From Ruminococcus sp. AM22-13 (GTDB lineage: Bacteria; Bacillota; Clostridia; Lachnospirales; Lachnospiraceae): DNA of 64,000 nt. The stretch's first letter is position 1. Each line of letters begins with the position of its first letter. Under the pieces are notes generated by a model. That model made no database searches. It saw only the letters and a program-made list of their open reading frames with translations, and was not told where the DNA came from. Made by a program: the position numbers and the translations under genes. This document shows, piece by piece, positions 2,427-40,353 of this stretch. The stretch covers positions 62,001 to 126,000 of the forward strand of contig NZ_QRIL01000009.1 in assembly GCF_003471165.1 (NCBI RefSeq), written 5' to 3'.

Positions 2427-2642
2427 GCGTGGCAGAAAATACTTTGTCCGGGGTGCATTTGCAGGGGTCTTAGATATTTTTAGCTCTCAGAAATCTGCGT
2501 TATGAGAAGAAAAGTCCTCTGTCTGAGCGCAGCGAGTAATCCCGACTTTTCTTCTCATGCCCTTAGCAGATTTCTGAGAGCTTAGAATATCTTAGACCCC
2601 GAAACCGCACCCCGGACAAAGTATTTTCTGCCACGCGTCCCT
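2427..2642 (-). repeat. Long palindromic repeat element, copy A
   Basis: A 30-bp perfect inverted repeat (2427-2456 against 2607-2636) encloses a second nested palindrome (CTCTCAGAAATCTGC, ATGAGAAGAAAAGTC and their complements) and a loop containing TTACTCGCTGCGCTCAGACAG. It carries AGGGACGC at one end. The same core recurs at 40143-40353 with different outer arms that are still perfectly paired. It sits between two convergent gene ends. No coding capacity is evident. Confidence 0.85.
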
Positions 2643-39937: not shown

Positions 39938-40066
39938 GAAAATATTCTCTGGTTGCCGCAGATTGTATTTCAACTGAAAAAGCAGACAGTATCTGGCTGT
40001 TACAGTAACGGACTTGCGCAGGGATTTCACCTGACTTCCTGTGGTGCTTTTCTGGGGTTATTTTTC
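39938..40066 (-). promoter_or_regulatory. Cobalamin riboswitch
   Basis: The minus strand contains the aptamer landmarks CAGGTGAAATCCC (40021-40033), CCGTTACTGTAA (near 40000-40011) and GCCAGATACTGTCTGC (39981-39996, B12-box region), in the right order and spacing. Together with the terminator downstream it should stop transcription of cbiD and the following cbi genes when adenosylcobalamin is plentiful. Outer boundaries are approximate. Confidence 0.9.
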
Positions 40067-40142: not shown

Positions 40143-40353
40143 AGGGACGCTCAGAAAAAGTTCTTGTGTTGGGTGCGGTTTCGAAGACTAAGATATTCTA
40201 AGCTCTCAGAAATCTGCTAAAGGCATGAGAAGAAAAGTCTGGATTACTCGCTGCGCTCAGACAGTGACTTTTCTTCTCATAACGCAGATTTCTAAGGGCT
40301 AAGAATATCTAAGTCTCCTGCAAATGCACCCAACACAAGAACTTTTTCTGAGC
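40143..40353 (+). repeat. Long palindromic repeat element, copy B
   Basis: Same family as 2427-2642, opposite orientation. AGGGACGC begins the element; a 28-bp perfect inverted repeat (40149-40176 against 40326-40353) encloses the conserved nested palindrome with GCTCTCAGAAATCTGC, ATGAGAAGAAAAGTC and the loop TTACTCGCTGCGCTCAGACAG. The outer arms differ from copy A at about a third of positions, yet each copy pairs perfectly. It lies between the MATE gene end and the cbi promoter. Confidence 0.85.

Follow-up and report, generated by a model that had tools for sequence, protein, structure and literature searches.

We identified a large, natural family of dispersed hairpins that corresponds to no Rfam family reached in our searches. 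The element is palindromic and ~220 nt in size, and two copies of it are present in the window, that is, the whole 64,000-nucleotide stretch analysed here. In our best reading, to which comparison of the sequences leads us to give about an even chance, this is a REP-like element acting as a hairpin at the DNA level, the arms of which would be copied from one another while its loops and feet would be kept by selection.

The two window copies lie on opposite strands, where the initial annotation had placed them (Table 1), and each folds as a single long hairpin. Folded together with a few flanking bases, copy 1 reached −141.1 kcal/mol (z-score −20.2) and copy 2 −122.6 kcal/mol (z-score −16.5), and in both cases none of 200 dinucleotide shuffles was as good. 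The outer arms had been described as perfectly self-complementary over 28–30 bp, and they pair with no mismatch over 30 bp in copy 1 and 28 bp in copy 2. The AGGGAC(GC) end attributed to both copies was also confirmed, as its complement GTCCCT lies directly 3′ of each outer helix. The proposed common core holds only in part: the complement of GCTCTCAGAAATCTGC is found in copy 2 in the 3′ arm only, and the 5′ core of this copy reads GCCCTTAGAAATCTGC. Copy 1 is flanked by two genes that both converge on it, one for an aminotransferase and one for a DUF711 protein, and copy 2 has a MatE transporter gene on one side and a cobalamin gene cluster on the other. At the gathering score, Rfam models gave no match at either element in the window, and permissive searches with window copy 2 and one Blautia copy returned sub-threshold matches only. 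Elsewhere in the window, a T-box leader was identified at 785–1036 on the minus strand (106.5 bits), and a sub-threshold match to the AdoCbl-II riboswitch (25.4 bits, cut-off 36.5) was found at 39979–40050 on the minus strand, just downstream of copy 2 and ahead of the cobalamin gene cluster.

Table 1. Features of the two hairpin copies in the window.
Feature	Positions	Strand	Remark
Copy 1, full hairpin and 3′ tail	2427..2642	+	
Copy 1, 5′ foot CCA, just outside outer helix	2424..2426	+	(C)CA recurs at other loci
Copy 1, outer helix P1, 5′ arm, 30 nt	2427..2456	+	Sequence variable
Copy 1, first conserved asymmetric internal loop, 5′ side, ATTTGCA	2457..2463	+	Invariant, 36-sequence alignment
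Copy 1, CTTAG..TTTAG box	2469..2483	+	T2471 and T2481 oppose T in the fold (T.T mismatches 10 nt apart)
Copy 1, second conserved asymmetric loop, 5′ side, GCGTTAT	2497..2503	+	Invariant, 36-sequence alignment
Copy 1, apical motif TGTCTGAGCGCAGCGAGT	2520..2537	+	
Copy 1, second conserved loop, 3′ side, ATGCCCTTAGC	2557..2567	+	36-sequence alignment
Copy 1, CTTAG..CTTAG box, 3′ side	2581..2595	+	36-sequence alignment
Copy 1, first conserved loop, 3′ side, GAAACC	2601..2606	+	Invariant, 36-sequence alignment
Copy 1, outer helix P1, 3′ arm	2607..2636	+	
Copy 1, 3′ foot GTCCC	2637..2641	+	
Copy 2, full hairpin and 3′ tail	40143..40353	−	
Copy 2, outer helix P1, 5′ arm, 28 nt	40326..40353	−	
Copy 2, outer helix P1, 3′ arm	40149..40176	−	
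Copy 2, 3′ foot GTCCC	40144..40148	−	

The copies of the family share one architecture. From the outside inwards, this is composed of the foot (C)CA, an outer helix of 28–30 bp, the loop ATTTGCA/GAAACC, a short helix and a T.T mismatch, followed by nine pairs, a second T.T mismatch, a long helix, the loop GCGTTAT/ATG..TTTTAGC and an apical helix. The apex is TGTCTGAGC..GCGAGT and the outgoing foot is GTCCC. The outer helix is free in sequence and near-fixed in length, and the loops and feet are conserved. Blautia copies carry an additional weak CCAA box farther out than the (C)CA foot. Copies with comparable feet and a helix of about 28 bp were also found in genomes G174, G178, G282, G007 and G053, those of G530 have GG-type feet, and the arms are longer or less regular in some other copies and genomes. 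Short forms (L016, L020:2406, L131 and L204) retain the outer helix, together with parts of the region around the first loop. Orthologous copies may differ strongly in the apical segment (L007 versus L022; window copy 1 versus L015), and one type of this segment is common to both window copies; based on this, we infer that copies within one genome may exchange sequence.

Individual loci show further peculiarities. The 3′ arm of one hairpin (L012 5434–5610, compared with L129 1586–1760 and L002) is intact in Blautia wexlerae, but G039 and a faecal “phage” contig both have it interrupted at an identical position, as if a second element had integrated into the hairpin. L173 and L176 match the model weakly, fold as branched structures and not as a single hairpin, and have a CCATGGA..GGC segment in common. 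In the right flank of L109, the 3′ end segment TTTTCTATGCGTCCC is tandemly repeated after the element.

A search of the genome collection with the pattern GTGCATTTGCAGGNNNCTTAGA returned 23 stretches, of which 11 were in B. wexlerae MSK.20.46, nine in Blautia sp. MSJ-9 and three elsewhere without a hairpin. A covariance model of the element gave 65 matches in the single-contig Blautia-group genome G039, corresponding to 40 places when both strands of a palindrome are counted once. Among 299 genomes sampled from the bacterial family, the model matched at least 27 (E up to 1e-4), and among 295 genomes of the order at least eight (E up to 1e-5), three of which are also among the 27; these counts are lower bounds, given the stricter filters and the limit of nine candidates per genome. 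BLAST alone matched five of 60 genomes of the genus and missed G053, where the covariance model finds at least nine copies. The copies found across genomes, together with the arm data below, support the original view that these elements form a defined repeat family, that their arms covary and that they are not simple terminators. We rejected an origin from phages or plasmids, as the element was found in only three unannotated faecal “phage” contigs and in no plasmid. Among viral contigs, the apical pattern had one match, which is not this hairpin, and the core pattern had 12, none with a hairpin by eye. A search of open-licence PMC papers found none describing these repeats.

The covariation of the outer arms is the central property of the family. 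Both arms could be read in 79 of 81 copies, a set that includes orthologues, and with the best register within 2 nt all of them match at 20 or more of the outer 28 positions (38 copies at 28, 24 at 27 and 17 at 20–26), so that unpaired outer arms were not encountered among the readable copies. At 50 independent loci, an arm differs from its own partner at a mean of 0.46 of 26 positions (32 loci are perfect) versus 13.2 of 26 between loci. The own partner beats that of every other locus in 48 of the 50; it is not strictly best in the other two, and at least two loci have identical arms. The nine copies of G106, whose outer helix spans 60 bp or more, show this pattern too, with 1.2 of 60 own mismatches versus 35 of 60 between copies in ungapped comparison. 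The best register within a few nucleotides was picked in these arm comparisons and in the orthologous comparisons below, and orthologous duplicates were removed before the 50-locus arm, foot base, G.T/A.C and flanking-repeat counts.

Such helices could in principle be transcription terminators into which the core had inserted, and many copies do lie a short way past the stop codon of an opposite-strand gene. We regard this explanation as highly improbable. Of 73 copies flanked on either side by an open frame, 27 run antisense to the two neighbours, nine run sense to them, 19 are in convergent gaps and 18 lie between divergent frames (contexts taken from open frames, orthologous copies included), and the last of these positions does not suit a terminator. 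Nor are the arms unrelated local sequences, as they are homologous between many loci and near-fixed in length. At 49 loci we detected no strong T-run after either foot; the 3′ side is moderately rich in T, and some individual copies do have a T-run. Among variant copies, L070–L075 have different outer arms and are situated at contig ends; L074 adjoins the end of a 23S gene, and L071 and L073 adjoin a region resembling a ribosomal RNA promoter by eye, with no 16S match.

The copies are also oriented with respect to replication. Across the five single-contig genomes used for this comparison, 53 of 68 copies are directed against the replication fork (binomial p = 4e-6), as do 24 of 28 when G039 is left out; by genome, the counts are 29/40 (G039), 8/9 (G053), 9/10 (G106), 4/6 (G530) and 3/3 (G003). 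The origin was taken from dnaA (at 328 in G039) and the terminus as the point opposite to it; outside G039, signs were assigned by hand from coordinates, mostly for the best-scoring places listed, and neither fragments (G106 42787) nor the short form L204 of G003 entered the count. In G039, a hand count with the terminus placed at ~1.65 Mb still gave 29/40, and within the convergent and divergent gaps of this genome 14 of 18 copies oppose the fork (p = 0.03). The orientation bias may derive in part from gene orientation, in view of the 27 versus nine copies in tandem contexts. As with REP elements, the fork bias suggests a hairpin formed on the template of the lagging strand.

Comparison of orthologous sites indicated how the helices change. 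Across 28 orthologous pairs we counted 33 double changes from one paired state to another, one other double and 13 singles; orthology was based on one or both matched flanks, and the pairs are partly non-independent and some are single-flank only. The 34 doubles comprise 20 transversions and 14 transitions. One pair, L111/L133, contributes 13 doubles and two singles, with flanks partly 92–94% identical, and without it there remain 20 paired doubles, one other and 11 singles. Window copy 1 differs from its B. wexlerae counterpart L015 by four doubles and no singles. Together, the four diverged pairs (L007/L022, L015/window, L020/L023 and L014/L027), with flanks 81–86% identical where matched, show 14 paired doubles, one other and no singles. 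A simple clock is disfavoured, as L021/L093 is comparably diverged (flanks 82–83% identical) yet its outer helix is unchanged, and L010/L017 (flanks 90 and 81%) has two singles only.

Selection on a DNA hairpin or cruciform alone, for example for protein binding, nucleoid organisation or a function at the fork, would explain the conserved loops and feet, the near-fixed length of 28–30 bp and the orientation bias without any copying of arms. Strong selection of this kind could also leave a pattern like that of template switching. We nevertheless consider this account rather unlikely. Double transversions are frequent, and one-sided states are absent from the four diverged pairs. Selection alone is also implausible for the near-perfect helices of G106, with at least 60 bp of free sequence, because a single mismatch there should hardly matter.

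The covariation might instead reflect a structured RNA, either a small RNA or a UTR element, whose pairing would be maintained through compensatory changes selected in the transcript. The hairpin does resemble an RNA family in its conserved loops and apex and its variable helices: in an alignment of 36 inner hairpins, 38 of 51 predicted pairs have at least one pair-preserving double change. Isolated G.T mismatches also exceed A.C by 39:22 (p = 0.04) in 58 Blautia-group copies, a ratio that does not differ (p = 0.58) from the 51:22 of 139 terminator-like control stems obtained by a crude scan. This excess is not seen in 28 other copies (16:15) and disappears when four further sets are added to cover all stems examined (78:67, p = 0.41; two copies of the further sets had already been counted in the first two, where they account for one G.T and two A.C mismatches). 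Against the control, a difference was found both for the pooled ratio (p = 0.03) and for its non-Blautia part of 39:45 (p = 0.004). Isolated G.T amounts to less than 1 percent of Watson–Crick pairs in each of three pools (39/4503, 16/2171 and 23/2921), and the transversions that make up 20 of the 34 in situ doubles cannot pass via G.U. The long helices of G106 likewise speak against an RNA, no Rfam family was reached, and no conserved promoter was apparent by eye in the printed flanks. Because of the transversions and of G.T not exceeding A.C overall, ordinary RNA compensation appears less likely than arm conversion at the DNA level, though it may still apply in Blautia itself, and we would put the probability of a structured RNA as low. 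As the Blautia ratio does not differ from that of the control, the DNA reading draws less on this ratio than on the distant relatives, the transversions and the scarcity of wobble pairs.

The unpaired positions behave differently. T.T mismatches are retained at fixed places (68 isolated cases in the Blautia set) though free copying would erase them, which suggests that they are protected by selection; the loops likewise persist where free copying would remove them. Of the two explanations offered in the initial annotation, arm conversion at the DNA level is favoured for the helices and selection for the unpaired loops.

We also considered whether the copies are relics of an ordinary MITE mobilised by a DDE-type transposase, with the arms as its long inverted repeats. 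G106 provides the evidence for this: 7–11 bp direct repeats flank eight of its nine copies, compared with one of 72 cross-comparisons reaching 7, and several copies have the outer ends GTTACNGTT. These repeats point to a cut-and-paste transposase, so the same core can travel on a cut-and-paste element and in this genome rides on a transposon-like one. Outside G106, no excess of target duplications was detected: the longest shared stretch averaged 3.85 versus 3.81 across loci for 20 loci of the other 28-bp type, one of which reaches 8 (a GTCCGTCC repeat), and 4.43 versus 4.22 for 49 Blautia-group loci. In addition, a transposase needs conserved ends, whereas the helix ends vary here. For the family as a whole, we therefore judge this origin doubtful.

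Joined flanks of 15 loci were compared with 60 genomes for empty sites, and six comparisons aligned at four sites. Remnants or a short form were present in four (L200, L203, L204 and L207) and two (L201 and L202) look empty, with no clear insertion junction in any of the six. The L014/L088 comparison between G001 and G039 is deletion-like, with an element end left behind, and not an insertion. A Y1 (IS200-type) transposase as neighbour was rejected, as none of 15 loci, fetched from 28 matches in five genomes, carries a copy within ~1.5 kb; a distant gene acting in trans is compatible with this result. Around 25 copies in other genomes, no transposase was noticed by eye in the longest frame on each side (49 frames), and the translated frames look like ordinary chromosomal genes. 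Among the 28 matches in G106, we found copies and fragments only and no autonomous partner. A second, larger repeat family with ends GTTACNGTTCAC is present in G039 (198 occurrences versus four of a reversed control pattern). Several of its listed places pair into elements of ~143 bp, its outer ends look like those found on several G106 hairpins, and members were seen at L282, L284 and the following even numbers and in the left flanks of L116, L122 and L125.

Among the closest known systems are REP/REPIN (BIME) sequences, which are likewise intergenic hairpins dispersed in many copies with a conserved foot. The present element occupies 40 places in G039, and some of its copies, too, form close inverted pairs, such as those at 1964586/1964938 and 3092965/3093328 in that genome. 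Integron attC sites, with their conserved R boxes and an integrase, were considered as an analogy. The account of REP/RAYT systems drawn on here names the lagging-strand template as the source of the processed single strand (PMC6006769), which parallels the orientation bias of our copies. The same account gives REP hairpins of 21–65 nt, in contrast to ~220 nt here (PMC6006769). Moreover, the present element lacks a GT[AG]G foot and has GGGAC on one strand (Blautia) and (C)CA on the other, contains several conserved internal loops, and adjoins no Y1 transposase that we could find. MITEs are similar as short non-coding palindromes in many copies, and the G106 variant has their flanking direct repeats. 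The Blautia type, however, yielded no target duplications, and its inverted repeats are what varies most, with the 13.2 of 26 differences between loci leaving no conserved terminal inverted repeats. We therefore did not file the family as REP, from which it differs in size, foot and neighbouring genes, or as MITE, since duplications were found only in G106.

In the REP-like reading that we prefer, the outer arms would stay identical because one is recopied from the other by template switching as the palindrome folds in the course of replication. Selection would preserve the loops, T.T mismatches and feet because the folded single strand is recognised by some factor. The form that is recognised or copied would be the hairpin on the lagging-strand template, reading 5′-GGGACGC-hairpin, and the element would be a very large, non-autonomous REP analogue, the folded single strand of which is acted on in trans. 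Arm copying and the recognising factor are both putative, and any function is a prediction from the sequences. Several results weigh against this reading: the Blautia G.T:A.C ratio, the changes in the pairs L021/L093, L010/L017 and L111/L133, the absence of a Y1 transposase from the 15 loci and of a clean insertion from the compared sites, and the direct repeats of G106. More tentatively, the family may represent a class of giant REP-like single-stranded DNA elements in which the folded lagging-strand copy is recognised through a ruler of ~28 bp between foot and loop, with one arm rewritten from the other at each replication-linked folding, so that the outer sequence would drift in a self-complementary manner.

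According to published work, template switching can both create stems and maintain them (PMC8794818). As quasi-palindrome correction, the process described there makes arms match and gives simultaneous double changes, as seen here; the part of that work considered treats mutation at existing stems and not the evolutionary mode of dispersed bacterial repeats. One further study has reportedly addressed quasi-palindrome correction by template switching, and long inverted repeats in Caenorhabditis elegans are said to show evidence of active maintenance. The latter are similar in the concerted evolution of two arms, but they are long arms that contain genes, and they belong to an animal, whereas the hairpins described here are bacterial, short and non-coding.

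Covariation commonly counts as proof that an RNA is functional; in this family, where it is strong, copying of DNA arms may explain it better. The hairpins provide built-in controls, namely conserved mismatches that are not erased, counts of G.T versus A.C, and orthologous sites, and each genome offers tens of loci at which template switching could be measured. The family also suggests that gut bacteria have a factor able to recognise a large hairpin.
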